Of a stretch of 64,000 nt of DNA, positions 16,511-36,280 are shown one piece after another. Source of the DNA: Sinohyriopsis cumingii. Lineage: Eukaryota > Mollusca > Bivalvia > Unionida > Unionidae. The first letter of the stretch is position 1; every line of letters starts with the position of its first letter. Under the pieces are notes generated by a model that was not told where the DNA came from, did not search any database, and saw nothing but the letters and a program-made list of their open reading frames with translations. The translations under genes were made by a program, and so were the position numbers. The stretch lies in the NCBI GenBank assembly GCA_028554795.2, contig CM068830.1, positions 44,517,837 through 44,581,836 of the forward strand, given 5' to 3'.

Positions 16511-16833
16511 AGTAGTGAATGGGGGCACCCTACGGACAATGGGAATTAGCATTAAAAAACCCCTTGGGCAAATCTACGGACAATGGAAATTTAACATGGA
16601 GAAAAATCGTGGGCAAATCTACGGACAAGGGGAATTAACATGGGAATAAATCGTGGGCCACTCTACGGACAAGGGGAATTTAACATGGTGATAAATCGTG
16701 GGTCACTCTACGGACAAGGGGAATTTAACATGGGATTTTTTTTAAAAAATTTTTTTAAAAAAAGGGGTAGGCAATTCAAAGACTATCTCTTTTCGAGAAA
16801 TATGGCTGGCCCTGAAAAGGGCCTTTGGGTTTT
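16511..16833 (+). repeat. Polinton left terminal inverted repeat
   Basis: Matches the reverse complement of 35958-36280 over 323 bp with about two substitutions seen (at 16809-16810 area and near 16788). The outer part consists of five ~44-45-bp subrepeats each starting ACGGACAA (16532, 16576, 16621, 16665, 16710), then A/T homopolymer blocks, then a histone-type stem-loop on the minus strand. TIR ends are where protein-primed replication would start; no terminal-protein site can be assigned from sequence. Confidence 0.95.
16808..16823 (-). terminator. Histone-type 3' stem-loop in left TIR
   Basis: Minus strand reads AACCCAAA, GGCCCTTTTCAGGGCC (6-bp stem, TTTC loop), AGCCA, then TTTCTCGAAAAGAGA as a possible purine-rich histone downstream element. 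It lies 25 nt after the stop of the minus-strand gene. Confidence 0.85.
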
Positions 16834-16848
16834 ATGTTAATGTATTCA

Positions 16849-17082
16849 TTAACATAAATGGCACCGCATTGGTCTTCTTCTTGTCCTTAGGCTGCGTCTT
16901 ACTGTTGGTCCGTACATCAGCACTCTTTTCAGGCATCCTTGTCTTTCGACGTAGATCCTACGTATCCACAGGCTGGTGTTTGTCCTGTGGACAACGGTCC
17001 ACTTCGATCGGACATACATGAGCAAGTCTGTCCGAAACATCATGGAAGACACAAGGGTGGATGACTCAACTGTAGTCCACAT
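16849..17082 (-). CDS. Small basic protein gene at left terminus (77 aa), unknown
   Basis: Not recognised. ATG at 17082, stop at 16849. The product is Arg-rich in its C-terminal half (RRSLRTRRRPMRC). What supports a real gene is the context: a minus-strand TATAAATA at 17127-17134 about 45-55 nt upstream, and a perfect histone-type stem-loop on the same strand beginning 25 nt after the stop (16823 down to 16808, inside the TIR). This is the same architecture as the other four terminal genes. Without those signals the ORF would be too short to call, and the overlapping plus-strand frame (16976-17161) has no such support. Confidence 0.5.
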   Translation of the reverse strand: MWTTVESSTLVSSMMFRTDLLMYVRSKWTVVHRTNTSLWIRRIYVERQGCLKRVLMYGPTVRRSLRTRRRPMRCHLC

Positions 17083-17126
17083 CTTGAAGCGACGAGAACA
17101 GGTGAATCAATGCATTGAACGGCGCT

Positions 17127-17134
17127 TATTTATA
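17127..17134 (-). promoter_or_regulatory. TATA box for the left minus-strand gene
   Basis: TATAAATA on the minus strand, 45-52 nt before the ATG at 17082. Confidence 0.55.
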
Positions 17135-17232
17135 GGCGGAGGAAGGATTGAAACGGATTGAGTTCATTTACCAATCCGAACACGCGTTACAGAATTCAGT
17201 CAGCTCGCATCCAATCCGAAGAGAGCAGTCTG

Positions 17233-17240
17233 TGACGTCA
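17233..17240. promoter_or_regulatory. Palindromic CRE/ATF-like site TGACGTCA
   Basis: Perfect 8-bp CREB/ATF consensus, ~60-70 nt upstream of the ATG at 17302 and just before a weak TATA-like AATATAGAT (17249-17257). Function is inferred from position only. Confidence 0.4.
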
Positions 17241-17301
17241 CGTAGTCAATATAGATTCGCTAGCGCTTGTGTGCAGTCAATCTATGCGACAGTGATTCAA
17301 C

Positions 17302-17883
17302 ATGACGGAAACTCAGAAAACGATCCAGTGGGGTGCACCAGCAGGGGAGACTGCCCAAGGGAACCCGGACTTACTTTCAGAAGAGGTGAATTGGGATTTT
17401 GTGGATTTTCTCTCCTCGCAAGAATTTGTTCCGGAACCTTCGTTACTTTCTTCATTACCGCAAGTGGAGAATTTTAGACAGAGACAGAAAGAAGAATTGG
17501 AGAAATTTATACAACGACAAAAGGAAGCGGAACAGGCTTTTCTCCTACAGCAACAGCAACAAGAAGAAGAGGTAAGAAAAAAACAACAGCAACAACAGCA
17601 AGAAGAAGTAGCAGCAAAGAAACAAGAGGGTGAAAATCAAACGGTCACGGTACTGTTGGACATTTTAGCGGAGTTAAGAAGTCTGAAACAAATGTATCAG
17701 ACTTCTTTATCACGACCGAAGAGAATACGACCTTCCCGAGCCAAACATGTCAACCCTGTGACTAAGCCTACCGTACCACCCTTAGTGATTTCAACCCAAT
17801 CATTATCATCATCAACATTACGCAGTCCAGAAGTAGGCCTTGGCCGTGGCAAAGGCTTAAGGCAGTTAAAATTGATTGCTTAA
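17302..17883 (+). CDS. Gln/Glu-rich coiled-coil protein (193 aa), unknown
   Basis: Not recognised. Residues ~1-50 are acidic (VNWDFVDFLSSQEF); residues ~55-115 are a long charged heptad-rich segment with Gln runs that should form a coiled coil; a short hydrophobic-heptad stretch follows (TVLLDILAELRSLKQMY, ~120); the last ~50 residues are basic and Ser/Pro-rich. ATG chosen because it is the first in frame after the TATA-like/CRE region. The stop is followed after 27 nt by a perfect histone-type stem-loop. Shares architecture, not clear sequence identity, with the three right-end genes. An oligomeric accessory or virion factor is possible, but no function is assigned. Confidence 0.8.
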   Translation: MTETQKTIQWGAPAGETAQGNPDLLSEEVNWDFVDFLSSQEFVPEPSLLSSLPQVENFRQRQKEELEKFIQRQKEAEQAFLLQQQQQEEEVRKKQQQQQQEEVAAKKQEGENQTVTVLLDILAELRSLKQMYQTSLSRPKRIRPSRAKHVNPVTKPTVPPLVISTQSLSSSTLRSPEVGLGRGKGLRQLKLIA

Positions 17884-17910
17884 ACTCACCCCTACACCAT
17901 GAAGAAAAAA

Positions 17911-17926
17911 GGCCCTTTTCAGGGCC
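17911..17926 (+). terminator. Histone-type 3' stem-loop after the 193-aa gene
   Basis: AAAAAA then GGCCCTTTTCAGGGCC then ACCCA: six-base stem, TTTC loop and both flanks agree with the metazoan histone mRNA 3' end. A purine-rich CGAAAAGAAATA follows at 17939-17950, where a histone downstream element would lie. Confidence 0.9.
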
Positions 17927-17950
17927 ACCCACATTTCTCGAAAAGAAATA

Positions 17951-18183
17951 CAATTTCAATTTGCCAATAACTCAAAAAAAAAACAAAAACTCACCCATGT
18001 TACCCTTTTAGTACGTGTCTGTGTATGAGTGCGTGAGTGTAGCTTCTTATTTTAAAATCACAACTCAAAGACACTTACCTTATATCATTCATTTATTCTT
18101 TTCTCCATTTTTTACAATCCAATTCACAATTTATAACACAACACTTTAATAAAAAGTTCATTAATTTCTTCTTTTCTCCTTTT
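17951..18183. other. Convergent intergenic region
   Basis: Lies between the 3' ends of the 193-aa gene (plus) and the zinc-knuckle gene (minus). TTTATT at 18092-18097 is an AATAAA signal on the minus strand, suitable for the zinc-knuckle gene. Confidence 0.5.
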
Positions 18184-18654
18184 TTAGTCTCTCTGTTTTT
18201 TGAATTTCTTCACCGTCACACTCTTTTCCTCTTCTTCCTCCTCGCTTTCTTCCCTTCTTCTTTTTTTCTCCTGTTTCTTTTTCTTCACCTGTCTTCTTTC
18301 TTCCTCAGAAGAATCCCTCTCTTCCTCTGAAGAATCCCTCTCTTCTTCTGAAGAATTCCTCTTTTCTTCTGACTCCTCTTGTTTCTTTTTTGGGCAATCT
18401 GGAGACCAATGTCCTTTTTCTTTACAATAATAACAGGTATCTTGACTTTTGTCTTTTTTATCCCCTGTTTTTTTTCTTTTTTGACGGTCTGGACACTCTG
18501 AAGACCAATGCCCTTTCTTCTGACAGATATAGCAAGTATCTTGACTTTTATCTCTAAAGGAAGGAGAGTAGTCCGTAGGCTGGTCTGAAGAGAATTTTCT
18601 AATGACCCCTCGCAAAGCTCTGACGAAACGTTCCATCTGGTCAGTCTCTTCCAT
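18184..18654 (-). CDS. Two-CCHC zinc-knuckle protein with acidic Ser/Glu tail
   Basis: From the ATG at 18654 (156 aa). Two CCHC zinc knuckles of the retroviral nucleocapsid/CNBP type: CYICQKKGHWSSEC and CYYCKEKGHWSPDC, separated by a Lys-rich linker, each fitting C-x2-C-x4-H-x4-C. After them come repeated SSEEERD units and a Lys/Arg-rich end with KKRRREESEEEEEEK. Such knuckles bind single-stranded nucleic acid, so a single-strand DNA or RNA binding role in replication or packaging is plausible. A further 16 codons are open upstream but start with GTG, so 18654 is preferred; a minus-strand TATATAAAA lies at 18709-18717, 55 nt upstream. The gene is divergent from polymerase, sharing a ~134-bp promoter region. 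Zinc knuckles are not a standard Polinton core gene. Confidence 0.85.
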   Translation of the reverse strand: MEETDQMERFVRALRGVIRKFSSDQPTDYSPSFRDKSQDTCYICQKKGHWSSECPDRQKRKKTGDKKDKSQDTCYYCKEKGHWSPDCPKKKQEESEEKRNSSEEERDSSEEERDSSEEERRQVKKKKQEKKRRREESEEEEEEKSVTVKKFKKQRD

Positions 18655-18708
18655 CGTTGTGCTCGACTTGAGAGTGAAATGAATAGTGAAAGGACAAGAC
18701 ACACACCC

Positions 18709-18717
18709 TTTTATATA
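18709..18717 (-). promoter_or_regulatory. TATA box of zinc-knuckle gene
   Basis: TATATAAAA on the minus strand, 55 nt upstream of the ATG at 18654; half of a bidirectional promoter with 18735-18741. Confidence 0.7.
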
Positions 18718-18734
18718 CGCTGGTCTGCTATGAC

Positions 18735-18741
18735 TATAAAG
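18735..18741 (+). promoter_or_regulatory. TATA box of polymerase gene
   Basis: TATAAAG, 48-54 nt upstream of the polymerase ATG at 18789. Confidence 0.7.
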
Positions 18742-18788
18742 TAGTTTATGGTGTTTGAATTTGAGTCATTTGACTTTTTGCTTTCAAG

Positions 18789-21700
18789 ATGAAACGATCC
18801 CATTCATTCGAGAAGAAAGAAGAAGAAAGTAAGAGGCAGAAACGTGATCTATCGCCTCGTACCAGGGCTGAAATCTTGGCACAAATTCATGCCAGTGATT
18901 TTGAAGAGGACATGAGTGAACCAGAATCCGAACCCTCTAAACCAAGTTCACCACCCTTAGTCAACCCTGAAAAGTACTATTCCATTCGAGAGACCGAAAA
19001 GCGCTCCTCTAGAAAATTTAGAACCACGGCTTACAAATACACGGTGAAGTTTAAAGATTTCAAGGCTGAAGTGCCGTTAGAGAAAGCAGAAGTGTTCATC
19101 ACCGAGGTGTGGGATTCTTTGCTCACTGCACTCAAGCGACAATGTCAACCCAAAGAAGACGATCGCTTGAGACTTTCCATACAACACGACGGTTTGAAAT
19201 CCCCTGTTTGGATCGAGTTTAGCACCCCTGCAGAATTAACTGCTTCCAAAGTCATGGACAAGATTCAACACGTACAACAATCTAATGATCAGTTTGACAT
19301 CACCGATGGTAAAGCCACACTGGACATGACCCACGTCTCTCCTCCTCAAGGGACAGGACGCAAAAAGATGTTATTGGTGGACTACCTTCGCAACACCAAA
19401 ACAAGTCTCGTCCGAATTGACAACCTTCATGACCAGATGTGCTTAGCCCGTGCCATCGTGGTGGGACGAACCTATGCCAACAAGAACGACACGGTAGAAT
19501 GGAAAAGAACCTGGGACACTATTCAACGTTCCGACCGAGCCAAACAACGAAATGAAGCAGAACTCCTGTTACAACAAGCCGGACTGCCCAAAGACACACC
19601 CTGCGGCATTCCTGAGATGCAAAAATTGCAAGATGTCCTAGCTCCACGATACACCTTGAAAGTGCACCCTCAAGAAGTGCGCGGACCTCTATTGTTTCGA
19701 GGGCAAGACTTTAAGGACGGAAAATACATTCATGTCTATTATCACGATGACCATTTCGATACGATTACCACTATCACTGGATTCCTGGGATACAGTTATT
19801 ACTGTGAGAAATGTGACCATGGTTATAACAATCGAGAGCAACACAAGCATTGTGGATCGAAATGCACAGGATGTTTGGCCTCTTCACCCTGTCTGAGCGA
19901 AGGACCAGTGCCTTGTTCCACTTGTCTGCGCACGTTTGTCAGCCCTACCTGTTACCAACAACATTTGAAGACGCAAGGTTCACAGAAGAAATGCGCTTGT
20001 CAACTGCTGAGATTGTGCCCCGCGTGTGGACAAGGCATACGTACCAATAGTGTCAAGGCACACGTATGTTCAGGAAAGAAAAAATGTCTCATTTGTCACC
20101 ACATCGTGGACTTGGAACACCAATGTTACGTGCAAAAGTACCAACCCCCACCAGAGAAAGAGGACGGTCACAAGAAGAAAGGCAATTTCATCTTTTTCGA
20201 TTTCGAATGCATGCAAGAGACTGGCATTCACATTCCTAATTTCTGCGTGGCTCATCGAGCGTGCGAGAAGTGTATTCAAGAACCTATCTTCAGTTATTGC
20301 CCTCACTGCAGCAAAATTCCTGGAGGGCGTGAAAAAATCTTTCGGGGACCGAACACGTTAGCCGATTTTGCCCAATGGGTCTTAGACCCCGTCGAAAAGA
20401 CGTGGAGCCAAGAGGACGTCGAACGTTACGGAGATTGTCATCGTCATGCCACGGTGATGGCTCACAATTTCTCCGGATACGATGGACAGTTTCTTCTCAG
20501 ATACTATACGGAACAAGGCACCGAGCGTCCTAAAGTGACTTTGAACGGAGCCAAAATCATTTTCATGCAAGTGGGACAAGTGCAGTTTAAAGATTCGATG
20601 AGCTATTTGGCCATGCCTTTGAGTCGAATGCCTAAAACGTTTGGAATGACAGAAATGGCTAAAGGGTACTTTCCACACTTTTTCAATACGGAAGCCAATC
20701 AACACGCCGTTCTACCCCATTTACCAGAGGCTCACTATTACGACCCCGACAACATGCGTACCGAACAACGAGAAGCTTTCTACGCTTGGTACCAGGCTCA
20801 CGCCTCGGACCCTTTCGACTTTCAGGAAGAAATGCTAAAGTATTGTCGTTCCGACGTGGACATTTTACGGCGTTGCTGTGGAAAATTTCGAGAACTGTTC
20901 ATGGAACACGGAGGGGTCGATCCTTTGAAAGAAGCTTGCACCATTGCCAAAGCGTGTTCCTTAGTGTATCGACAACGATTCATGCCTGAAAACACCGTGG
21001 CTGTCATCAGCCCTCAAACGACCCACTTTGTCAAACGTCAATACTCTGTCAAAGCCCTACGTTGGTTACATTACTTGTGCGACAAGGAAGACAAGTGGAT
21101 TCAGCATGCCCGCAACGGAGGAGGCGAAAAGACCATCGGAACGTATTCGGTAGATGGCTGGGACTTAGAAAACCCCAAGATCGTGTACGAGTTTAACGGT
21201 TGTTTATTTCACGGATGTCCCGTCTGTTACCCTGACCGTGGCACTAAAAATCAGTTTTTGCAACGAACCATGGAAGACTTGTACCAGGACACTTGTCAGC
21301 GACGCCTAAAGTTAGAACAGCAAGGATACCAAGTGGTGGAAATGTGGGAACACGAGTACGATCACCGTATGAAAACTGATCCCGAGTTTAAACGCCTCGT
21401 GGAAAGTTACCAGTTCATGGACCCGCTGAACCCGAGGGATAGTTTGTACGGAGGAAGGACCAATGCCACCTGTTTGCTGTACCAAGCCGACGAAGAGAAA
21501 GGAGAAGAAATCAAATACTTGGACGTGTGTTCGCTGTATCCCTACGTGTGCAAATATTGTCGCTTTCCTGTAGGGCACCCGCAATTGCTGACTGAACACA
21601 TCGACCTAAAAAACATTCGACAATACGAAGGCTTGATCAAGTGCAAAGTTTTGCCTCCCACGAACCTATACCATCCCGTCTTACCTCACCATTGTCAAGG

Positions 21701-22853
21701 CAAACTGATGTTTCCCTTGTGTCGTACTTGTGCCGAAACGTGCAACCAAGACCAACCTTGCCATCACAGCCAGGAAGAACGGGCCTTGACGGGAACTTGG
21801 GTCAGCGTAGAATTGTTCAAAGCTCTGGACATGGGATACCAACTGTTAGAAGTGTACGAAATTTGCCACTTTCCCAAGACACAACAGTACCACAAGGGTG
21901 ACCCCACGCAGAAAGGCATTTTCGCAGACTACGTGGATGCCTTTTTGAAACTGAAACAAGAAGTCAGCGGCTATCCTTCCTGGTGTCACACTCCCGAAGA
22001 CCAAATACAATTCAAAGAGAAATACTACGAACAAGAAGGCATCACTTTAGACCACATCGAGAAAAACGAAGGCAGGCGATCGTTTGCCAAAGTGATGTTA
22101 AATTGCTTGTGGGGTAAAATGGCACAACGACCGTGTTTACCCAAGACGGAATATTTGACAGAACCTTCCCGCTACTTCCAGATGATTCACGACAAAACCA
22201 AATACATGAAACACGTGGACGTCGTTCGAGAGAATTTGATCTTGGTCAATTACGAAGAAGATCTGGACTTTGTACAAGACGACCCTTTTGGAAATGTCAT
22301 CATTGCGGCTTACGTGACAGCCCATGCTCGCTTAAAATTGTACGAAGCTTTAGAACTGTTAGAAGAACGCGTCCTGTACTTTGACACGGACAGTTGCATT
22401 TACATTCATCACCCGATTCAACATCACCCTGACATCGAAGGAGACCGTTTAGGAGCCTGGACAGACGAGCATCCCGACGACAAGATTCTAAGTTTCGTCA
22501 GTGGCGGTCCCAAAAATTACGGCTACGAATACCGGGACAAACAAGGAGAAGTGCACACGACGTGCAAAGTGAAAGGACTGACTCTGAATTATCGTACCAG
22601 TCGAGTGGTCAACTTTGGGGTATTGAAAGAAGCCTTGCAATCGGGAGAGGATGGAAACTTTAAAGTGACCACCTACCAACCGAACAAAATTGTACGTTTA
22701 CCCACTCACCACATCGTCAGTCGACCCTTGGAAAAAGTCTATCAAATCGTGTACCAGAAGCGAGTGAGACTTCCCAATCATTTCACCTTACCGTACGGTC
22801 ACACCGGTATTGGTCTGTATATAAAAAAAAGGAACCCTAGGCAAGACCGATAG
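18789..22853 (+). CDS. polB: Protein-primed family B DNA polymerase (Polinton type)
   Basis: 1354 aa, usual size for Polinton polymerases. The N-terminal ~330 residues are charged and poorly recognisable. Residues ~338-455 form a Cys/His-rich zinc region (YYCEKCDHGYNN, CSTCLRTF, CPACGQGI). The 3'-5' exonuclease follows: Exo I FFDFEC (D471, E473), Exo II HNFSGYDGQFLLRY (~558), Exo III YCRSDVDIL (~685). Polymerase motif A is YLDVCSLYP (D912), motif B is KVMLNCLWGK (K1101), motif C is YFDTDSC (D1199 and D1201). All catalytic residues are present, so the enzyme should be active and would replicate the element from a terminal protein at the TIRs. Transcribed from its own TATA box; its 3' end contains the TATA of the next gene. 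Confidence 0.97.
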   Translation: MKRSHSFEKKEEESKRQKRDLSPRTRAEILAQIHASDFEEDMSEPESEPSKPSSPPLVNPEKYYSIRETEKRSSRKFRTTAYKYTVKFKDFKAEVPLEKAEVFITEVWDSLLTALKRQCQPKEDDRLRLSIQHDGLKSPVWIEFSTPAELTASKVMDKIQHVQQSNDQFDITDGKATLDMTHVSPPQGTGRKKMLLVDYLRNTKTSLVRIDNLHDQMCLARAIVVGRTYANKNDTVEWKRTWDTIQRSDRAKQRNEAELLLQQAGLPKDTPCGIPEMQKLQDVLAPRYTLKVHPQEVRGPLLFRGQDFKDGKYIHVYYHDDHFDTITTITGFLGYSYYCEKCDHGYNNREQHKHCGSKCTGCLASSPCLSEGPVPCSTCLRTFVSPTCYQQHLKTQGSQKKCACQLLRLCPACGQGIRTNSVKAHVCSGKKKCLICHHIVDLEHQCYVQKYQPPPEKEDGHKKKGNFIFFDFECMQETGIHIPNFCVAHRACEKCIQEPIFSYCPHCSKIPGGREKIFRGPNTLADFAQWVLDPVEKTWSQEDVERYGDCHRHATVMAHNFSGYDGQFLLRYYTEQGTERPKVTLNGAKIIFMQVGQVQFKDSMSYLAMPLSRMPKTFGMTEMAKGYFPHFFNTEANQHAVLPHLPEAHYYDPDNMRTEQREAFYAWYQAHASDPFDFQEEMLKYCRSDVDILRRCCGKFRELFMEHGGVDPLKEACTIAKACSLVYRQRFMPENTVAVISPQTTHFVKRQYSVKALRWLHYLCDKEDKWIQHARNGGGEKTIGTYSVDGWDLENPKIVYEFNGCLFHGCPVCYPDRGTKNQFLQRTMEDLYQDTCQRRLKLEQQGYQVVEMWEHEYDHRMKTDPEFKRLVESYQFMDPLNPRDSLYGGRTNATCLLYQADEEKGEEIKYLDVCSLYPYVCKYCRFPVGHPQLLTEHIDLKNIRQYEGLIKCKVLPPTNLYHPVLPHHCQGKLMFPLCRTCAETCNQDQPCHHSQEERALTGTWVSVELFKALDMGYQLLEVYEICHFPKTQQYHKGDPTQKGIFADYVDAFLKLKQEVSGYPSWCHTPEDQIQFKEKYYEQEGITLDHIEKNEGRRSFAKVMLNCLWGKMAQRPCLPKTEYLTEPSRYFQMIHDKTKYMKHVDVVRENLILVNYEEDLDFVQDDPFGNVIIAAYVTAHARLKLYEALELLEERVLYFDTDSCIYIHHPIQHHPDIEGDRLGAWTDEHPDDKILSFVSGGPKNYGYEYRDKQGEVHTTCKVKGLTLNYRTSRVVNFGVLKEALQSGEDGNFKVTTYQPNKIVRLPTHHIVSRPLEKVYQIVYQKRVRLPNHFTLPYGHTGIGLYIKKRNPRQDR
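22818..22826 (+). promoter_or_regulatory. TATA box of the BIR gene, inside polymerase 3' end
   Basis: TATATAAAA within the last codons of the polymerase gene, 60-68 nt before the ATG at 22886. The same arrangement persists in the decayed copy near 1530. Confidence 0.65.
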
Positions 22854-25356: not shown

Positions 25357-25402
25357 TCTTGTCTTGTTTGTTTTTCGTGTCACAAGTGACATTTCTCACA
25401 CC

Positions 25403-26146
25403 ATGGCTACCTCTGCTGTCTCTGCTCCCTCTTCCTCTACTGTCAAAGTCATCGACGAACACTTAGATCGTGCCAGTTGGGAGGCTTTGTATCTTCGCCA
25501 TCCCTTTAACATGCTCATTGCTGGACCTAGCGGTTCAGGCAAAACCGAATTCGTCAAACGTTTGATCGAACATAAACATCATTTGATCGATCGGCCCCCT
25601 CAACGGATCGTGTGGTGTTACAAAGAGTGGCAATCGGCGTACAACCTCTTGCGAGAAAGTCAAGGCGATTCCATCGTGTTTGTGGAAGGCATTCCTAAAG
25701 AAGACGATGGCATCGTCTCTGACTCCCGTCTAACCCATTTGGTCATTTTCGACGACATGTTAGGAGAAGACGAAGAAGAAATTAAATTGTGGTTTACGCG
25801 CAAAGGGCATCACCGTAATGCCAGTGTCGTTTACATCACCCAAAATTTGTTTCAACAAAGTAAAGCCCATCGCACCATCAGTCTCAATGCGCATTACGTG
25901 GTCTTGTTTAAAAGCCCTCGAGATAAATCGCAAGTGCAAGTCTTAGCCAAACAGTTAGGAACGCCTTGGCTGACTCAGGCGTACGACGATGCCACTCAAA
26001 CGCCACACGCCTATTTACTCGTCGATTTGAAACCTACGACTCCCGAGGATTTGCGATTTCGTACCCACTTGTTTCACCACTGGTGCCAAGACGGAGGGCC
26101 TGTCCTGTACACGTCTCCGTCCTCGACTTCATTTCACTCCCCATGA
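25403..26146 (+). CDS. Genome-packaging ATPase (FtsK/HerA-type, A32-like)
   Basis: 247 aa from the ATG at 25403; an in-frame extension upstream uses a TTG and would overlap the TATA box, so it is not preferred. Walker A is GPSGSGKT at residues 41-48 and Walker B is HLVIFDDM (D117, D118). A later sensor-like VVYITQN at ~145 (Asn) and the RKGHHRN block fit the packaging ATPases of Polintons, adintoviruses and virophages. The role would be to pump the element's DNA into capsids. Has its own TATA box, with the preceding transcript ending at 25327. Confidence 0.95.
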   Translation: MATSAVSAPSSSTVKVIDEHLDRASWEALYLRHPFNMLIAGPSGSGKTEFVKRLIEHKHHLIDRPPQRIVWCYKEWQSAYNLLRESQGDSIVFVEGIPKEDDGIVSDSRLTHLVIFDDMLGEDEEEIKLWFTRKGHHRNASVVYITQNLFQQSKAHRTISLNAHYVVLFKSPRDKSQVQVLAKQLGTPWLTQAYDDATQTPHAYLLVDLKPTTPEDLRFRTHLFHHWCQDGGPVLYTSPSSTSFHSP

Positions 26147-28303: not shown

Positions 28304-29416
28304 ATGGAAAAAGTCTTAGCCAGCATTTACTACGATCCCTCCCATCCTGCAGGTTACGCAGGAGTTCAAAAATTGTTTCGTGCTGCCAAAACGCGACTGA
28401 AAAGTCTCCGTTTACCTCAAGTGCAACGATGGTTACAAGAACAAGTTACCTACACTTTACACAAACCCATTCGACGCAAGTTTGCCAGAAGTCGCACCCG
28501 AGTGGAAGGCATCGATCATCAATGGCAAGCCGATTTAGCCGATGTCTCTCATTTGGCCAGCTACAATCGTGGCTACAAATATTTGTTTTGTGTCATCGAC
28601 GTCTTTTCCAAATTTGCCTGGGTCGTACCCTTGACTTCCAAATCGAGCAGTGAGTTAGTGCGAGCCCTGCAACGGGTGTTGAAACAAAGCGGTCGTCACC
28701 CTCTTCGATGGCAAACGGACAAAGGCACCGAATTTCTGAACCAAGCTTTCCAAAAAGAATTAAAGAAACGTGACATTCATTTTTTTACCACCGAGAATCC
28801 AGAAACCAAAGCCAGCATCGTGGAACGTTTTCAACGCACTTTGAAAGAACGCATGTGGAAATATTTTACGCATCACCACACTCTGAAGTACATCGACATC
28901 TTACCGCATCTGGTGCAAGCGTACAACCAATCTTACCATCGAAGCATCGGACGTGCCCCGCAAGACGTGACTCCCGACAACGAAGTGCTGGTGTTCGAGC
29001 GCCTGTTCGGTACGTCCCCGACGAGGGCTGTCCCCAAGAAAAGTGGAGAGTTGACCGTAGGAGATTGGGTGCGCATTGGCAAAACCAAACGCACTTTCGA
29101 CAAAGGTTACTTACCTAACTGGACGACCGAACTGTTTCGGGTCACTGGACGAGTACATGGCCGTCATCCTGCCGTCTATAAATTGGAAGACATGAACGGA
29201 GAAGTACTCAAAGGAACGTTTTATTTGCCCGAGTTACAACGTGTCACCAAAAAAGAAGACGACGTGTACGACATCGAAAGCATTCTCGAACGCAGAACCC
29301 GTAAAGTGGGCAAACGACGTGTCAAAGAAGTCAAAGTACGTTGGAAAGGATATCCACCCAGTTTCGATTCTTGGATCGACGCTTCGCAAGTCATCGACTA
29401 TAAAAAGAAGAAGTGA
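28304..29416 (+). CDS. int: Chromodomain integrase (retrovirus-type, DDE)
   Basis: 370 aa. Catalytic core has WQADLADV (D77), QTDKGTEF (D139) and ASIVERFQ (E174), the D,D,E triad of retroviral integrases with 34 residues between the last two. The C-terminal ~50 residues (~318-367) form a chromodomain: VYDIESILERR, VRWKGYPPSFDSWI with the aromatic/Trp positions retained, which would direct insertion by binding methylated histone tails. The HHCC zinc finger is not obvious. This enzyme makes the 6-bp target duplications seen at the ends. The gene is fully open and 5 nt ahead of the next ATG. Confidence 0.97.
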   Translation: MEKVLASIYYDPSHPAGYAGVQKLFRAAKTRLKSLRLPQVQRWLQEQVTYTLHKPIRRKFARSRTRVEGIDHQWQADLADVSHLASYNRGYKYLFCVIDVFSKFAWVVPLTSKSSSELVRALQRVLKQSGRHPLRWQTDKGTEFLNQAFQKELKKRDIHFFTTENPETKASIVERFQRTLKERMWKYFTHHHTLKYIDILPHLVQAYNQSYHRSIGRAPQDVTPDNEVLVFERLFGTSPTRAVPKKSGELTVGDWVRIGKTKRTFDKGYLPNWTTELFRVTGRVHGRHPAVYKLEDMNGEVLKGTFYLPELQRVTKKEDDVYDIESILERRTRKVGKRRVKEVKVRWKGYPPSFDSWIDASQVIDYKKKK

Positions 29417-29835: not shown

Positions 29836-30755
29836 GTCACCAAAACCAATTTTACTTGACCTTACCCAGTGACAGTTCCATGGAGGTGTTTCCCAATAAC
29901 ACGTTGTGCTGTTACACGGCCAAATTACCTCAAGCCATCCCCTTAGATCACGAAGCCCATTGGGAAGTGGCTTTAGTGGAAATGATTCACCCAACCCAAG
30001 TCCTCAATGTCCTTCCCAATCAAAATGTTTTTGATGTGGAAGTTCATGACGAGCAAATGCAACAGTGGATGGATAGCAATGTCAAATATGACAAGAAAAC
30101 CCGTGCACAAAAGTACACCATCTATCACTTGTTCATTCCCCCAGGCTATTATTTTAGTGGTCAACATTTGGTCAGCACCATAACCTCCAGGTTTAATGTC
30201 GTGTTTCTGAAAGCTTTAGAGCATGTCAACAAAAGTGTCACCATGGAGTACCACAAAGCAGCTCGTCGCTTCTTGATGAAATTTGAACGAAGTAAAATCC
30301 TGTCCATTTTATTTTGTCCTGAATTGTTTGACATGTTGGGCGGAGACATGGACATGAGAAAGGCCATGCTCAAGAAAAACGAATTACCCATCGTTTACGA
30401 CAACGAGTCTTTTAGCAAGTTATTTCGTGCCCCGGTAGAACTGAACCAAGGACTGAATTTGATGTTCGTGTATTCCGATGTGGTGGAGTACAACGTAGTG
30501 GGACACACCTCCGTACCGTTACTGCGTGTCATTCCTTTCAAAGTGGATTCTGCCACGAACGCTGACGAAGAAGGTGGAAACACTTACCACGTCCACCGCG
30601 AATTTGTCCATCCTCACTATTTGCCTGTCAGCAAGTCGTATTTGGACACGGTCAACATTGCTATAAAAGGAGATTTGGGACAAAATATTCCATTCACCAA
30701 AGGAAAAGTCACGGTGAAACTCCATTTTCGAAAACGGTTCTCTCACGATTCGTAA
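29832..30755 (+). CDS. Minor capsid (penton-like) protein
   Basis: 307 aa. Starts MSHQNQFYLTLPSDSSMEVF and continues FPNNTLCCYTAKLP, then a beta-rich chain with WEVALVEMIHP, typical of the single jelly-roll penton-like protein that Polintons carry next to the hexon-like gene. Acts at capsid vertices. The assignment is from N-terminal pattern, length and position; structure prediction was not possible here. Begins within the stop of the membrane protein gene. Confidence 0.8.
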   Translation: MSHQNQFYLTLPSDSSMEVFPNNTLCCYTAKLPQAIPLDHEAHWEVALVEMIHPTQVLNVLPNQNVFDVEVHDEQMQQWMDSNVKYDKKTRAQKYTIYHLFIPPGYYFSGQHLVSTITSRFNVVFLKALEHVNKSVTMEYHKAARRFLMKFERSKILSILFCPELFDMLGGDMDMRKAMLKKNELPIVYDNESFSKLFRAPVELNQGLNLMFVYSDVVEYNVVGHTSVPLLRVIPFKVDSATNADEEGGNTYHVHREFVHPHYLPVSKSYLDTVNIAIKGDLGQNIPFTKGKVTVKLHFRKRFSHDS

Positions 30756-30762
30756 GTAAGTC

Positions 30763-31179
30763 ATGTATCCAGTGTACCGAGGGGTGGCTCGACAGCGAGG
30801 ACACGGTTTAGGAGACATGTTAAAATCGGCCTTTCGTTCGGTGGCCCCGGTGTTGAAACCGATGGTGACACGCGGATTGCACGCCTTGAAAGATGCGGCA
30901 CTGACGCAAGGCAAAGAATTTCTCCAAAATGTCATCATCGACAAACAAAACCCTAAAGAAGCCTTCATGAGGGCAGGCAAAAATGTCTTGCTGCAAACGG
31001 GTAAAGACATTTTGGGCCGACGAGACACACCTATAAATGCCCTGCACGATACCGAGTCAAGCATTCAGCAAGGACAAGGCAGAAAGAGACGAAGAAGAAA
31101 ACACCCCTTCACCAGACTTCAAGCGAGAAAGGCCAAGAAAAGAAGAACCGTACGAGACTTAGACGTTTTCGATTATTGA
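30763..31179 (+). CDS. Basic pVI/pX-like virion protein (138 aa)
   Basis: MYPVYRGVARQRGHGLGDML leads into an amphipathic helical region (~18-75) and a strongly basic C-terminus (RKRRRRKHPF, RKAKKRRT). It lies between the two capsid genes, 7 nt after penton and 15 nt before hexon. The small size, Gly/Arg N-terminus and basic tail are like the adenovirus cement/core proteins pVI and pX, which are cut by the viral protease, but no cleavage site is assigned. A TATAAATG at 31032-31039 inside this gene may serve the hexon gene. Confidence 0.7.
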   Translation: MYPVYRGVARQRGHGLGDMLKSAFRSVAPVLKPMVTRGLHALKDAALTQGKEFLQNVIIDKQNPKEAFMRAGKNVLLQTGKDILGRRDTPINALHDTESSIQQGQGRKRRRRKHPFTRLQARKAKKRRTVRDLDVFDY

Positions 31180-31194
31180 GAAAAGAGACAAAAA

Positions 31195-32505
31195 ATGATG
31201 CACCGAGAATCTTGCGCCTGTTCCAAGACGGAACTGGATCTGTTTGCCATGCCCCCCACCATGATGACCATGCAAGAATCCCAATGGGTGGAATTTCACC
31301 CCGTCTCCTCATTGACAGCCTCAGCTCCCATCGAGTTTGAAATCAAAGGACAGCCCGAAGATTACATCGATCTGAATAGCAGTTACTTGTACTTGAAAGT
31401 CAAACTTGTCGATGAGGACAATTCGACCCTAGATGGGGATGAGGTAATAGCTCCCGTCAACAATTTCATGCATTCCTTGTTTAGCGGAGTGGACTTGTAC
31501 TTGAACAACAAACTGGTCAGCAGCAGCATGGATACTTACCCTTATCGAGCGTACCTGGAAAATCTCTTGACGTACGGAATAGACGCCAAGAACACTCATC
31601 TCAATGCCTGTGTGGTATGGGAAGCTGACGAAGCTGAAAAGTTTGAAAATTTAGAAACTGATGAAAAGAAAGAAAACAATGACGGATTTATAGAACGAAG
31701 AAAGAGAATCAAAGATGGACAGAGTTTAGAACTGATGGATCGTTTACATCTGGACATGTGGTTGCAAGAGAAATATTTACTAAACGGGGTCAATGTCCGC
31801 CTGAGACTGAATCGGAGCAGTGCCGCTTTCCATTTGATAGGTAATACTGTTTGCAAAACTGTCATCGAGGAAGCCAGGCTCTACGTACGTCGTGTGGAAG
31901 TGTTACCTAAAGTGGGTAACGACATCAGTCAAACGTTGAGCAGAACGACAGCCAAGTATCCCATACGACGCGTGGAAGTGAAAACCTTCACCATTCCCAA
32001 GGGACAACGATCCATGATCGAAGATCATCTGTTCCAAGGACAGCTACCCAAGCGTTTGATCGTTGGTATCGTCGAAAATGAAGCCTTCAACGGAGCTTTG
32101 GCTAAAAATCCTTTCTACTTTCAACACTTTGGCGTGTCCAAGATCGAAGTCAGTCGCGATGGCAAGACCTTGTGTACCCGACCCTTTGAGCCTGACTTTG
32201 AGAAGAAGAATTACTTGAGATCGTACTTGTCCCTGTACGAAGCCACCGGTCAGTTAGGAACCAACACCAGTCACGGTATTACGTACGAGGATTATGTAGG
32301 AGGCTATGCTTTGTGGGCTTTCGATTTCACTCCAGACCAAGGCAGCGACGAGGGACATTTCCACCCTATAAAATCAGGCCAGATTCGTGTGGAAATTCAG
32401 TTTGCAAACCGAGACCCTGATGTAACGGTGAACGTCATCCTGTATGCAGAATTCGATAATACCATAGAAATCAACAGTTTGAGAGAAGTCATCCTAGATT
32501 ACTAG
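31195..32505 (+). CDS. Major capsid protein (hexon-like, double jelly-roll candidate)
   Basis: 436 aa; two adjacent ATGs (31195, 31198). The N-terminal part LDLFAMPPTMMTMQESQWVE and FEIKGQPEDYIDLNSSYLYL, then FSGVDLYLNNKLV, matches the widespread Polinton/adintovirus hexon-like family (often named F54H12.2-like in animal genome annotation). Such proteins form trimeric double jelly-roll capsomers. Length is typical and the frame is open. Neighbouring penton, pVI-like, ATPase and protease genes complete a capsid-assembly set. Confidence 0.88.
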   Translation: MMHRESCACSKTELDLFAMPPTMMTMQESQWVEFHPVSSLTASAPIEFEIKGQPEDYIDLNSSYLYLKVKLVDEDNSTLDGDEVIAPVNNFMHSLFSGVDLYLNNKLVSSSMDTYPYRAYLENLLTYGIDAKNTHLNACVVWEADEAEKFENLETDEKKENNDGFIERRKRIKDGQSLELMDRLHLDMWLQEKYLLNGVNVRLRLNRSSAAFHLIGNTVCKTVIEEARLYVRRVEVLPKVGNDISQTLSRTTAKYPIRRVEVKTFTIPKGQRSMIEDHLFQGQLPKRLIVGIVENEAFNGALAKNPFYFQHFGVSKIEVSRDGKTLCTRPFEPDFEKKNYLRSYLSLYEATGQLGTNTSHGITYEDYVGGYALWAFDFTPDQGSDEGHFHPIKSGQIRVEIQFANRDPDVTVNVILYAEFDNTIEINSLREVILDY

Positions 32506-32511
32506 AAAGCC

Positions 32512-33000
32512 ATGGAAGACTGTTGTCCCTCTTTACCTAGTGAAGAAACTTTGGAGATGGAATGTAAGGAGACCGTGGAAGGAGAAGAAGATATCATGAT
32601 GAAGTCGAGATGGCCAGAACAAGAAGCCCATTTAGTCTCCTGTTTTGCCAAACACTTGGTCGACAAAATAACAGAATTGATTAAGAAAAATTGCTATGGA
32701 TGTCAAAACGATCATCCCAGTCAAATTCAACACGATAAATGCCTGATGTTGAGTCAAGAAGAAAAATTGGACGAGTATCTGGACGAAGCTTGGAGTCTCA
32801 TCTCGAACAAAGACGTGTTGCATCAGTGGTATAAAGACTTGCGTGAACATTCTTGTCCACCATTAACCACTCAAGAGATCCATCGTATCGAAGCTCTCCT
32901 GAATCAGAGTGAGGAAACAGAACGAATAACCGTTTATTCGTCAGACATTTTCAAGCAAAAAGTCAGGATCGAATTGACGACTTATTATTACCTGTGGTGA
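32512..33000 (+). CDS. Acidic protein with Cys/His cluster (162 aa)
   Basis: Starts 6 nt after hexon. Acidic N-terminus (EETLEMECKETVEGEED), then KKNCYGCQNDHPSQIQHDKC at ~59-79, a possible zinc-binding C-x2-C-x3-H-x5-H-x2-C cluster, then helical sequence ending TTYYYLW. An ORF with this C-x2-C ... HPSQ ... H pattern is commonly seen near Polinton capsid genes, function unknown. Possible promoter TATAAAAT at 32367-32374 in hexon. Confidence 0.7.
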   Translation: MEDCCPSLPSEETLEMECKETVEGEEDIMMKSRWPEQEAHLVSCFAKHLVDKITELIKKNCYGCQNDHPSQIQHDKCLMLSQEEKLDEYLDEAWSLISNKDVLHQWYKDLREHSCPPLTTQEIHRIEALLNQSEETERITVYSSDIFKQKVRIELTTYYYLW

Positions 33001-33023
33001 AGAAGAAGAAAAAACACAAAACA

Positions 33024-33584
33024 ATGGATACCTGGGAACTTTATTACCTTTTGAACCACAGTTCGTATACAGCTTCTTGGAATCCTGTCGTCTGTGCTAA
33101 AGATGAACTCCCTCATCGCAAACCTAAAGACCATCAAGCTTACGTGATCAACACGGACGATAGTCATCTCCCAGGAACCCACTGGGTAGCCGTCTACTTT
33201 CCTCAAGAAGGATGTGTGGAATATTTCGATTCGTACGGATTGCCCCCTTTGGAAGACGATATCATCGACTTTATGAGAAGAAATGCTCAAACCACCCGAT
33301 TCAATAACGTGAAATTACAAGGCACAGATTCCTTGGTGTGTGGACAGTACTGTGTGTATTTTCTGCATCATCGCAGCCTGGGCTATTCCTTAGAACATTT
33401 AGTGACTCATTTTGATCCTCGTTCTTCTGCTAGAAATGATGTGAAAGTAGATCGATGGTTTTGTGACCATTATGCTTATCTTTTGTCTCAAGCTAGGAAA
33501 CGTAGTGTCCATCAATGGCCTAATGATTTCCAACAGTGGAAATCACAATTTCATTCACAACGTTGTAAGCCTTGTTTAAAGTAG
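33024..33584 (+). CDS. Adenain-like maturation cysteine protease
   Basis: 186 aa from the ATG at 33024 (MDTWELYYLLNHS); the in-frame GTG at 32994 overlaps the previous stop and adds only a Lys-rich leader. Family C5/ULP1-like catalytic residues: His in GTHWVAVYF (H53), Asp in EYFDSYG (D69), and the nucleophile in LVCGQYCVYF (C110, with C106 as the preceding Cys), with a Gln upstream (Q99 region) for the oxyanion hole. Cleaves virion precursor proteins during maturation. The stop is followed ~105 nt later by AATAAA, closing the late cluster. Confidence 0.93.
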   Translation: MDTWELYYLLNHSSYTASWNPVVCAKDELPHRKPKDHQAYVINTDDSHLPGTHWVAVYFPQEGCVEYFDSYGLPPLEDDIIDFMRRNAQTTRFNNVKLQGTDSLVCGQYCVYFLHHRSLGYSLEHLVTHFDPRSSARNDVKVDRWFCDHYAYLLSQARKRSVHQWPNDFQQWKSQFHSQRCKPCLK

Positions 33585-33689
33585 ATTGTATTTGAAGAAA
33601 AAAATGTTTGTGATTTGAAAAAAATTGTTTGATGTTATAGTGTTGGATTATTGTTAAAAATGTTGTTGTTTAGTGTTAAGTGATTTTTG

Positions 33690-33695
33690 AATAAA
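33690..33695 (+). terminator. Polyadenylation signal AATAAA after protease
   Basis: Canonical hexamer 105 nt after the protease stop, in an A/T-rich trailer; likely ends the capsid-protease transcripts. Confidence 0.65.
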
Positions 33696-33813
33696 AAAAT
33701 GTTGTGTTTAGAAAAAAATGCCTTTGTCTTTTGTTTAGCTATAAGAATGTTGGATTGATGCTCTTTCATTTCTTACTATCACTCTCATGAACGTTGCGGC
33801 TCGAAAACCGTGT

Positions 33814-33850
33814 GGGGGATGTTTTCCTTCACGTCCGCGCTTTCACTTTA
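33814..33850 (+). promoter_or_regulatory. Shared promoter block, copy 1
   Basis: GGGGGATGTTTTCCTTCACG then TCCGCGC, followed by TTTCACTTTAAGAACC with a TATA-like TTTAAGAA, 55-90 nt upstream of ATG 33906. Matches copies at 34683, 35415 and 35485. Confidence 0.75.
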
Positions 33851-33905
33851 AGAACCGGGTTGTTCCCAGTCTAGCCATCCATTGTCGACTCATCCTCCTA
33901 AGAAG

Positions 33906-34268
33906 ATGTGCTCCAAACTAGCTAAGCTCAACGAAGCCTACGTGAATTTGCATAGGGTCAGACACAGTCTGATACCGAAGCCAGAAGAAATAGAGAATGT
34001 GAGAATGTTAAAAATCACTGAAGACCTGATAGAAGAGCTCTTCAGAGAAGAAATGAACAGGGAGAAAGAAGAATGGACAGAGAAGTACAGACTTCAGAGA
34101 CAGCAGCAACAGCAGCAACAGCAACAACAGCAGCAGCAGCAACCTGAAGCTGACAGAGGCTTTGTCGATTGTCGTATCGACACCAAAGAATTCTTCTTCT
34201 CTTTTCGAAGAAGCAGACCTATCGCCAGAAAGTCTATCCTCAGAGGACATCGCATTCTTAGAAACTAA
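33906..34268 (+). CDS. Right-end cassette gene 1: poly-Gln coiled-coil protein (120 aa)
   Basis: ATG 33906 (an upstream in-frame TTG is not preferred). The N-terminal ~40 residues (MCSKLAKLNEAYVNLHRV) are helical with regular Leu spacing, then an acidic/Lys-rich helix leads to a run of about 15 Gln, and a basic end (FRRSRPIARKS). Not recognised. Preceded by the shared promoter block and followed, 29 nt after the stop, by a histone-type stem-loop. Overall plan resembles cassettes 2 and 3 although sequence identity is low. Gln run length may vary between copies. Confidence 0.75.
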   Translation: MCSKLAKLNEAYVNLHRVRHSLIPKPEEIENVRMLKITEDLIEELFREEMNREKEEWTEKYRLQRQQQQQQQQQQQQQQPEADRGFVDCRIDTKEFFFSFRRSRPIARKSILRGHRILRN

Positions 34269-34297
34269 AAAGAATGCCATAGCAAAACAAAAAAAAC

Positions 34298-34313
34298 AGC
34301 CCTTTTCAGGGCT
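34298..34313 (+). terminator. Histone-type 3' stem-loop, cassette 1
   Basis: AAAAAAC, then AGCCCTTTTCAGGGCT (perfect 6-bp stem, TTTC loop), then ACCCA. Purine-rich AGAAAAGAAATAA follows at 34325-34337. Confidence 0.9.
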
Positions 34314-34318
34314 ACCCA

Positions 34319-34630
34319 ATACTCTAGAAAAGAAATAACCATCAATTTGCCAATGTGTGTAGGTAGAGTAGTGTGAAAATAAACACTAACTCTTTTTCAA
34401 AAAAAGTGAGAGTATGTGTTTGTGTGTTTGTGTGATTGTGTTTGTAAGTGATAAAGTAGGTTGGTGTGGATAGTAGATTAAAATGATGTTTGTTTTTTTT
34501 GGCTGTTAGAGGTGTATATTTGGAGTTAGATTGGATTGCTTTGAGTATGTGGATAGTCTATTGAAGTGATTTATAAAAAATTTTACAATAGTGATGGGTA
34601 GCATAAAAAAGTGAGTGAATGTTTCTTTTA
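34319..34630. repeat. Duplicated 3' flank of cassette 1
   Basis: CAATTTGCCAATGTGTGTAG, GTAGAGTAGTGTGAA and AAACACTAACTCTTTTT plus a GT-rich tract are repeated after cassette 2 (35199-35370) at an ~880-bp offset, so cassettes were duplicated with their 3' flanks. No ORF. Confidence 0.7.
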
Positions 34631-34682
34631 GGTCCGCGCGTTGTTTGGTCATGATCTAGGTAAGATGAATTTTATGTTTTTA

Positions 34683-34723
34683 GGGGGATGTTTTCCTTCA
34701 CGTACGCGCTTTCACTATAAATT
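34683..34723 (+). promoter_or_regulatory. Shared promoter block, copy 2, with TATA
   Basis: GGGGGATGTTTTCCTTCACG then TACGCGCTTTCAC, with TATAAATT at 34716-34723, ~51 nt before ATG 34774. Upstream at 34631-34682 is a degenerate second copy of the block core (GTCCGCGCGTTG, GGTCATGATCTAGGTAAGAT). Confidence 0.8.
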
Positions 34724-34773
34724 GAAACTCGTTCGGCAGTCCAGCTACCCTTGTTGATTGATCAACACCAAAA

Positions 34774-35148
34774 ATGAACACGAGACTGGAGAAACTGTTG
34801 GAACTTCATGTGCATCTGGAATATGCCAGGCGCATATTAAATGAACTGGCCGCGGAAGCCATTGTCGAGGAGGGAAGGATAAGAGAGGAGGAAAGAAGAA
34901 ACAAAGAAGAGGAGGAGAGAAGATATAAAGAAGAAGAGGAAAGAAGATACAAAGAGGAGGAGAGAAGATACAAAGAAGAGGAGGAGGAGAAGGAAAAGGA
35001 GAGAAGAAAAAATTTCAGAATCCCAGAGAGCGAAAATTGGGATTCTGAAGCGACATATCCTGCCTCTGCTCTCTCCCCCCAAAAGGTAAAAAGTAACTGG
35101 GGGATAAGATGTGTATGTGGCGCCAGGCCTGGAAGGTGCCACCATTAA
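34774..35148 (+). CDS. Right-end cassette gene 2: Glu/Lys/Arg-rich coiled-coil protein (124 aa)
   Basis: MNTRLEKLLELHVHLEYARR forms a Leu-heptad helix; residues ~40-85 are repeats of the type RRYKEEEE that would continue as a long charged helix; the end is Ser/Pro and Gly/Cys-containing (CVCGARPGRC). Not recognised. Flanked by the shared promoter and, 29 nt after the stop, the histone-type stem-loop. Probably a diverged duplicate of cassettes 1 and 3. Confidence 0.75.
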   Translation: MNTRLEKLLELHVHLEYARRILNELAAEAIVEEGRIREEERRNKEEEERRYKEEEERRYKEEERRYKEEEEEKEKERRKNFRIPESENWDSEATYPASALSPQKVKSNWGIRCVCGARPGRCHH

Positions 35149-35177
35149 CCAGGTGTCCATGAAGTTCCAAACAAAAC

Positions 35178-35193
35178 AGCCCTTTTCAGGGCT
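35178..35193 (+). terminator. Histone-type 3' stem-loop, cassette 2
   Basis: Same 16-nt stem-loop as cassette 1 with ACCCA after it and AGAAAAGAAATAA at 35205-35217. Confidence 0.9.
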
Positions 35194-35414
35194 ACCCAAT
35201 ACTCTAGAAAAGAAATAACGATCGATTTGCCAATGTGTGTAGGTAGAGTAGTGTGAATATAAACACTAACTCTTTTTAAAAGATGTGAGGGTATGTGTTT
35301 GTGTGTTTGAGTGTTTGTAAGAGCTGAGGTATGTTTGTGTGAATAGTAGATTATGGGTTTCTTAGCGTATGTGGAGAGTATGGTTTGGGTTATATTATAT
35401 GAAATGAAAAAGTA

Positions 35415-35524
35415 GGGGGATGTTTTCCTTCACGTACGCGCGTTGTTGGGTCATGATCTAGGTAAGATCCATTTTATGTTTTTAGGGGGATGTTTTCCTT
35501 CACGTACGCGCTTTAAGTATAAGA
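35415..35524 (+). promoter_or_regulatory. Doubled promoter block of cassette 3
   Basis: The GGGGGATGTTTTCCTTCACG block occurs at 35415 and again at 35485, 70 bp apart, separated by GGTCATGATCTAGGTAAGAT and ATTTTATGTTTTTA. TATAAG at 35518-35524 is ~40 nt before ATG 35564. Confidence 0.8.
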
Positions 35525-35563
35525 ACCCACAGTATTCGTCGTTCAAACCATTCTTCATAGAAG

Positions 35564-35908
35564 ATGGCTTCAAACCACCTGGATAAATTTCAATCATTGC
35601 AAGACGTCCTTGACAATTTGGGAATGATAGAACAAATGCTCGTACGACTAGTTGAAGATCACTATTCTTATAGTCAGCATAGAGTAAAAATGGAAATTAA
35701 TAATTTAAGAAAAGCAAAGGATATGATAAGTGGTGTAATGAAGGAAATAAAGGAGGAGAAGGAGGATGAAGAAGAAAGGACAAGGATGAGAGCATGGAAT
35801 GAAAAAATTGAAAAAGAAGAAGAAAATGAGAAGAGGAAGAAAGAAGAAGAGGAGGAAGAGAAGAAAGAAGAGGAGGAGAAAAAAAAAGAAGAAAAAGAGT
35901 GTAGGTGA
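35564..35908 (+). CDS. Right-end cassette gene 3: Glu/Lys-rich coiled-coil protein (114 aa)
   Basis: N-terminal helix with regular Leu/Met (FQSLQDVLDNLGMIEQMLVR), then DHYSYSQHRVKMEINNLRKA, then an almost pure Glu/Lys helix to the end. Not recognised. Preceded by the doubled promoter block. The stop is followed after 59 nt by the stem-loop embedded in the right TIR, so the TIR provides this gene's 3' end. Confidence 0.72.
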   Translation: MASNHLDKFQSLQDVLDNLGMIEQMLVRLVEDHYSYSQHRVKMEINNLRKAKDMISGVMKEIKEEKEDEEERTRMRAWNEKIEKEEENEKRKKEEEEEEKKEEEEKKKEEKECR

Positions 35909-35957
35909 GAAAATAAGAAGTTGGTGGAGGAAAAGAAGAAATTAGAAGCAGAAGAAG

Positions 35958-36280
35958 AAAACCCAAAGGCCCTTTTCAGGACCAGCCATATTTCTCGAAA
36001 AGTGATAGTCTTTGAATTGCCTACCCCTTTTTTTAAAAAAATTTTTTAAAAAAAATCCCATGTTAAATTCCCCTTGTCCGTAGAGTGACCCACGATTTAT
36101 CACCATGTTAAATTCCCCTTGTCCGTAGAGTGGCCCACGATTTATTCCCATGTTAATTCCCCTTGTCCGTAGATTTGCCCACGATTTTTCTCCATGTTAA
36201 ATTTCCATTGTCCGTAGATTTGCCCAAGGGGTTTTTTAATGCTAATTCCCATTGTCCGTAGGGTGCCCCCATTCACTACT
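35958..36280 (-). repeat. Polinton right terminal inverted repeat
   Basis: Inverted copy of 16511-16833, same length, same A/T block lengths, same five subrepeats (seen here as TTGTCCGT on the plus strand). Inner end carries the 3' stem-loop of the last plus-strand gene. Confidence 0.95.
35968..35983 (+). terminator. Histone-type 3' stem-loop in right TIR (one mismatch)
   Basis: AACCCAAA, GGCCCTTTTCAGGACC, AGCCA, with CTCGAAAAGTGATA downstream. One substitution relative to the left TIR breaks the third stem pair (C-A). Confidence 0.8.

Follow-up and report, generated by a model that had tools for sequence, protein, structure and literature searches.

The window considered here, a stretch of 64,000 nucleotides from the bivalve Sinohyriopsis cumingii (GCA_028554795.2, contig CM068830.1, positions 44,517,837 to 44,581,836; coordinates below are those of the window), contains a Polinton that spans positions 16511-36280. 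Toward its ends the element carries five outer genes, numbered 1 to 5 from left to right, and each is followed on its coding strand by a stem-loop and a purine-rich element of the kind that ends replication-dependent histone messenger RNAs (mRNAs). Gene 1 (16849..17082, minus strand, 77 amino acids) and gene 5 (35564..35908, plus strand, 114 amino acids) are the outermost and read outward, with stem-loops 1 and 5 behind them. Gene 2 (17302..17883, plus strand) encodes a glutamine-rich protein of 193 amino acids with 20 relatives in the protein database. Gene 3 (33882..34268, plus strand) is listed as an open reading frame (ORF) beginning with TTG, its first ATG being at 33906, and is followed by gene 4 (34774..35148, plus strand, 124 amino acids). 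No outer gene reads as a histone, as judged from the translations (a Pfam scan was not made for these five), and with the gene 5 protein as query none of the 7975 scored candidates reached an E-value of 0.001.

Stem-loop 1 (16808..16823, minus strand) and stem-loop 2 (17911..17926, plus strand) have the same sequence, GGCCCTTTTCAGGGCC, while stem-loop 3 (34298..34313, plus strand) and stem-loop 4 (35178..35193, plus strand) both read AGCCCTTTTCAGGGCT. The fifth, GGCCCTTTTCAGGACC (35968..35983, plus strand), contains one C.A mismatch. From the first to the fifth, the hairpins stand 25, 27, 29, 29, and 59 nt behind the stop codon of the gene that they follow. The downstream elements are GAAAAGAGAT for stem-loop 1 (16785..16794, minus strand), GAAAAGAAAT for stem-loops 2, 3, and 4 (17940..17949, 34327..34336, and 35207..35216, all on the plus strand), and GAAAAGTGAT for stem-loop 5 (35997..36006, plus strand), and in all five cases GAAAAG begins 13 nt past the hairpin. 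The positions, strands, and stop distances of the stem-loops, their flanks, and the purine-rich element behind them had been described in a sequence-only reading of the window, and all of these were borne out. The 6-bp stem that it ascribed to all five was found in four, which fold as a 6-bp stem with a 4-nt loop at -9.0 to -11.4 kcal/mol.

All five stem-loops were matched by the Rfam model of the histone 3' stem-loop (RF00032), only two of them above its gathering score of 34: stem-loop 2 (17906-17950, 41.2 bits) and stem-loop 1 (16828-16783, 35.6 bits). The three at the right end fall below this score, with 31.0 bits for each of stem-loops 3 and 4 (E = 2.1e-5 for both) and 26.2 bits for stem-loop 5 (E = 0.0013), the E-values being those of a 21-kb search with 4227 Rfam families. 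No further match exceeded the gathering score in the 64 kb, and none was found at an E-value of 5 or less in 16000-37000. A plain 16-mer pattern allowing two mismatches matched 8 times, compared with 3.2 matches expected from shuffled sequence, and 2 of 100 shuffles reached 8. Besides the five stem-loops, the 8 include matches at 13942, 22619, and 25901 that look like chance, so that the plain pattern taken by itself is weak evidence.

The host's own histone genes end in the same way. In the 2.90-Gb host genome searched they are arranged in tandem, each unit measuring about 8.3 kb, and the one unit examined, taken in four pieces, has hairpins of this kind behind H3 (GGCCCTTTTTAGGGCC), H2B (GGCCCTTTTCAGGGCC), H2A (GGCCCTTTTAAGGGCC), H1 (GGTCCTTTTCAGGACC), and H4 (GGCCCTTTTTAGGGCC), with GAAAAG 13-14 nt past the hairpin in all five. 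H1 was named from its position within the unit and from the lysine-rich end of its product, with no family match behind the name. Stem-loops 1 and 2 share their 16-mer with the H2B hairpin, and the two host signals that were scanned with RF00032 scored 38.2 and 35.9 bits, no better than the 41.2 bits reached in the element. The comparison with host histone genes that had been put forward together with the original proposal thus came out in its favor.

The genes of the element differ in the type of 3' end that they carry. For each gene, the 200 nt past the stop codon were searched in copies of the element for the best 16-mer with at most three mismatches, and stem-loops were counted in copies that had not been chosen for the stem-loop in question. 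A stem-loop was found after gene 3 in 14/15 copies, gene 4 in 27/30, gene 5 in 9/11, gene 1 in 3/3, and gene 2 in 3/3, and none of the shuffled versions (20 per copy) reached the same limit of three mismatches. Of these 56 stem-loops, 54 have GAAAAG 12-14 nt behind them (gene 3, 13/14; gene 4, 26/27; gene 5, 9/9; genes 1 and 2, 3/3 each). Three core genes were used for comparison. The putative protease gene, the final one of the core block (32994..33584, plus strand; weak match to adenovirus endoprotease, PF00770, E = 0.009, below the cut-off) has a stem-loop in none of 15 copies and a polyadenylation (poly(A)) hexamer, AATAAA or ATTAAA, within 200 nt in all 15; in the window its AATAAA lies at 33690..33695 (plus strand). 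The zinc-knuckle gene (18184..18702, minus strand; PF00098, E = 1.7e-13) likewise has no stem-loop in the window, where AATAAA follows at 18092..18097 (minus strand), nor in any of 11 copies, and has a hexamer in 10 of 12. For the gene preceding the protease gene, stem-loops were found in 0/15 and hexamers in 1/15 copies. Among the outer genes, a hexamer follows gene 4 in one of 30 copies and gene 3 in 4 of 15. The contrast with the protease gene is therefore clean for gene 4 and fairly clean for gene 3; it is not clean for gene 2. Judged from these signals, the genes of the element appear to be divided between two routes of 3'-end formation.

The same arrangement recurs in other copies within the host genome. 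A genome-wide RF00032 search gave 75 scored matches, all above the cut-off; as only the best candidates were scored, lower-scoring host histone signals are missing from this set. When 1.2-1.5 kb on each side of the 75 matches was examined (2.4-3 kb per locus), a gene of this Polinton kind was found to adjoin 71 of them (64/68 and 7/7). In none of the 75 was there a match to H2A, H2B, H3, or H4 within the stretch examined (H1 was not used as a query). The remaining four loci (L018, L032, L050, and L062) match neither Polinton nor histone queries, though L032 and L062 each have a further stem-loop of the type seen at genes 3 and 4. For 18 copies, which had first been found through a left-end stem-loop, the right end was located from its distance to the polymerase gene. 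Of these 18, 15 contain genes 3 and 4 with a stem-loop behind each, and the terminal stem-loop was present in 17, with all six pairs formed in 14 of the 17; the right end of L076 shows nothing.

Comparison among copies also bears on whether the signals are maintained. Among 14 distinct gene 4 sequences assembled without any stem-loop-based choice, identity is 0.93 in the stem-loop and 0.84 in the GAAAAG region, compared with 0.51-0.95 in flanking stretches, and the four distinct gene 2 sequences not picked by their stem-loop have an identity of 0.92 across it. We regard this conservation as support for a retained function, not as proof of it. Ratios of nonsynonymous to synonymous divergence (dN/dS, ratio of medians) are 0.16 for gene 1 (26 intact copies), 0.37 for gene 2 (29), 0.13 for gene 3 (12), 0.19 for gene 4 (18; median dS 0.72), and 0.32 for the protease gene; all come from copies with intact frames, a choice that favors low values. 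In 195 contexts, a set that includes some rows that are not stem-loops, the outermost position of the stem pairs as G-C 124 times, as A-U 50 times, and half-way between the two (A.C or G.U) 9 times, counting the first pair of each stem. A-U goes with genes 3 and 4 and G-C with most others, and the change may have been one event. Beside one copy lies a decayed relative (L085:3090-3352), its gene 1 42% alike and its polymerase pieces 28-50% alike, in which a stem-loop stands 25 nt past the gene 1 stop with GAAAAG 13 nt further. The arrangement therefore appears to be older than this Polinton family. The far end of this relative gave no match within the 10 kb examined.

As outlined in two studies (PMC9756948, PMC1924863), the stem-loop binding protein SLBP binds the hairpin of a histone transcript, the U7 small nuclear ribonucleoprotein (snRNP) attaches to the downstream element by base pairing, and cleavage occurs between the two. 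Since both elements are present here at the host's own spacing, processing of the five transcripts by the host as histone-type messages is the simplest reading. We infer that SLBP would bind the hairpin of each outer-gene transcript, that the U7 snRNP would pair with the downstream element, and that host factors would cut the nascent RNA between them, a few bases past the hairpin. The products would be short mRNAs that lack poly(A) and arise mainly during replication of the cell's DNA. The histone 3'-end pathway works chiefly in the phase of DNA synthesis (S phase), and the outer genes may in this way be tied to the period when the element's own DNA can be copied. The proposal that the element takes over SLBP/U7-dependent processing, which the sequence-only reading had already made, is supported by the match to host histone genes, by retention of the signals in copies, and by the contrast with poly(A)-type genes. 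We put the probability that the histone-type signals of the outer genes are used by host factors, with the zinc-knuckle and protease transcripts belonging to the poly(A) class, at roughly 0.85. It is also likely, if somewhat less assured, that the outer genes use the SLBP/U7 pathway and are thus made during DNA copying, with the core genes using poly(A).

Several observations weigh against this interpretation. With its C.A mismatch, stem-loop 5 does not form the full stem in this copy. The five signals are not independent of one another, because stem-loop 5 is the inverted-repeat counterpart of stem-loop 1 and stem-loops 3 and 4 lie within a 114-bp repeat. A poly(A) hexamer is present behind gene 5 in 3/19 copies, behind gene 1 in 9/31, and behind gene 2 in 13/26, with 9 of the 13 at gene 2 lying within 20 nt of the stop codon and hence ahead of the hairpin. 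The stem-loop identities of 0.97-0.99 at genes 1, 2, and 5 (flanks 0.41-0.98) are inflated, since a high-scoring stem-loop was the basis for choosing many or most of these loci and the pattern with at most two mismatches for choosing all of them, and some other stretches at these genes are as conserved as the stem-loop. The host factors themselves were not detected. U7 was not found in the host genome by RF00066, and a U7 pattern gave 22 matches, compared with 16 for the reversed pattern, with a convincing 3' hairpin in none of the eight inspected; a family search found the SLBP domain neither in the host genome nor in any control genome. These searches are not decisive, because the control genomes likewise gave no match, U7 is a short RNA, and introns may interrupt the sequence for the SLBP domain. 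Finally, five contigs from bacterial metagenome-assembled genomes (MAGs) that hold distant Polinton pieces (L070-L074) gave no RF00032 match up to an E-value of 0.5, a result that cannot decide whether the signal is general, since no inverted repeats were seen in these contigs and they may be incomplete.

Some of the evidence would also suit other explanations. If the hairpins were inert remnants of histone gene ends that had been captured, spread by copying and repeat conversion and having no present role, this could account for the finding that two signals lie inside the inverted repeats and two inside the 114-bp repeat. The likeness to host histone ends also seems to extend past GAAAAG, as a TTTCAATTTGCC-like block appears by eye to recur in both the host histone and the element sets. 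We nevertheless consider such an origin without function unlikely: at gene 4 the stem-loop keeps an identity of 0.93 while its surroundings fall to 0.51-0.78, the median dS of the gene is 0.72, and the near absence of hexamers behind this gene contrasts with their presence in every copy of the protease gene. Hairpins that act in DNA at the element's ends, to serve its replication, packaging, or integration, would make the histone likeness incidental. Stem-loops 1 and 5 do sit where the inverted repeats have their inner edges, but stem-loops 2, 3, and 4 are outside them, each of the five stands on the coding strand 25-59 nt behind a stop codon, and the match covers loop, flanks, and downstream element at the host's spacing, so that this idea is very improbable. 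As for hairpins arising by chance, the loose 16-mer pattern does produce 3.2 matches per 64 kb by shuffling; the covariance-model E-values and the recurrence at the same place in copies, unmatched by shuffles, leave this explanation so little room that we take it as refuted. A variant that is compatible with the interpretation favored here holds that the outer genes have dual 3' ends, histone-type or polyadenylated depending on the cell, a situation found at some histone genes. In its favor, an AATAAA that could serve as a back-up poly(A) signal stands behind stem-loop 3 in this copy (34378..34383, plus strand), which in itself counts against exclusive histone-type processing, and hexamers are frequent behind genes 2 and 1. 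Overlapping poly(A) and histone-type signals are also described at human H2AC18 (PMC9756948), and dual processing of H2A.X mRNA is named in the title of PMC7807067. On the other hand, gene 4 all but lacks the hexamer, and hexamers are short enough that some will occur by chance. We consider dual ends of this kind rather unlikely.

Compared with the 3' end of replication-dependent histone mRNAs, the element has the same hairpin, loop, and flanks, likewise placed shortly behind a stop codon of the coding strand, with GAAAAG at the host's own spacing of 13-14 nt. It differs in that its genes are not histones and belong to a mobile element. A hairpin and a poly(A) hexamer can be close neighbors, as they are in the histone genes of Caenorhabditis elegans, whose RNAs, according to one report, end 3-6 nt past the hairpin and all of whose genes of this kind have at least one hexamer or variant of it (PMC1924863). 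The present case differs from the nematode genes in that the element is not a histone locus and in that its gene 4 has a hexamer in only one of 30 copies. As in other Polintons or Mavericks, the element has a type B DNA polymerase (PolB), an rve integrase with a chromodomain, a packaging ATPase, inverted repeats, and a 6-bp target duplication, along with a probable capsid protein and protease. It differs from them in its five outer genes, whose 3' ends are of the histone type. For intact vertebrate Mavericks, PMC8097293 describes both inverted repeats and duplications of 6 bp, and the terms "histone", "stem-loop", and "polyadenyl" do not occur in the main texts of PMC8097293 and PMC4028283. 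No paper joining Polintons with the histone stem-loop or histone mRNA was found in the open-licence literature of PubMed Central, a scope that does not show the combination to be undescribed. Signal and element are both of known kinds, and their union appears to be new. Adintoviruses are animal DNA viruses with Polinton-type genes.

The histone 3'-end pathway is regarded as serving little else than histone mRNAs. If the interpretation is right, the pathway can be taken over by a mobile element for five of its genes, and a cis signal would suffice to couple a virus-like element to S phase. The outer genes would then be natural non-histone substrates for SLBP and U7, and a whole class of non-histone genes, in many copies within one animal genome, would be under histone-type processing. 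In addition, a match to RF00032 in an animal genome is no sure sign of a histone gene, given that none of the 75 scored here has a core histone in the stretch examined.

The classification of the element rests on both its ends and its genes. The left (16511..16833) and right (35958..36280) terminal inverted repeats, 323 bp long and identical at 321 of 323 positions, carry stem-loops 1 and 5, respectively, at their inner edges, and the target site duplication CTGGCT lies directly outside the element on both sides (16505..16510 and 36281..36286), these repeats and the 6-bp duplication being traits of Polintons/Mavericks. Within each inverted repeat are five direct repeats spaced 44-45 bp apart (16521-16733 and 36066-36269). 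Pfam domains of such elements were matched in the genes for DNA polymerase B (18789..22853, plus strand; PF03175, E = 1.9e-41), the packaging ATPase (25364..26146, plus strand; PF04665, E = 1.5e-7), and the integrase with its rve domain and chromodomain (28304..29416, plus strand; PF00665, E = 2.6e-14, and PF00385, E = 1.1e-7). A 19-nt motif, TTTTCCTTCACGTNCGCGC, lies upstream of gene 3 (33822..33840, plus strand) and again ahead of genes 4 and 5 (34691-34709, 35423-35441, and 35493-35511). With at most three mismatches allowed, these are its only four matches in the window, where 0.04 are expected, and the motif is perhaps a shared promoter element of genes 3, 4, and 5.

The putative major capsid protein gene (31195..32505, plus strand) was assigned by place and size, without a Pfam match. 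Its product has 864 relatives, and among the best 120 of these the ones bearing an animal name are all molluscs. Within the same 120, relatives from a clam, oysters, and a periwinkle have 43-54% identity, one comes from a bacterial MAG, and the closest have 78-87%. No relative of the protein was found in viral contigs, either with the single sequence or with an alignment as query. Two pattern scans for the stem-loop in viral contigs matched one contig each. In one contig this is a hairpin of 24.8 bits that lacks GAAAAG, and in the other the match lies inside what appears by eye to be an open frame, although one absent from the list of complete ORFs; both were taken as chance. Behind the capsid gene of a Polinton piece in a mussel symbiont MAG (L071:11734-11798) there is a weak match to the twister-P1 ribozyme of 28.9 bits, compared with a gathering score of 67.2, which is probably chance. 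Elsewhere in the window, the translation of an ORF at 567-1208 resembles by eye part of the polymerase encoded at 18789-22853 and is apparently a second, decayed Polinton piece. A transfer RNA match of 35.5 bits at 9286-9358 is perhaps a short interspersed element, and the minus-strand ORFs at 43174-48324 and 58390-60381 resemble, again by eye, the remains of a reverse transcriptase and endonuclease of a long interspersed element.

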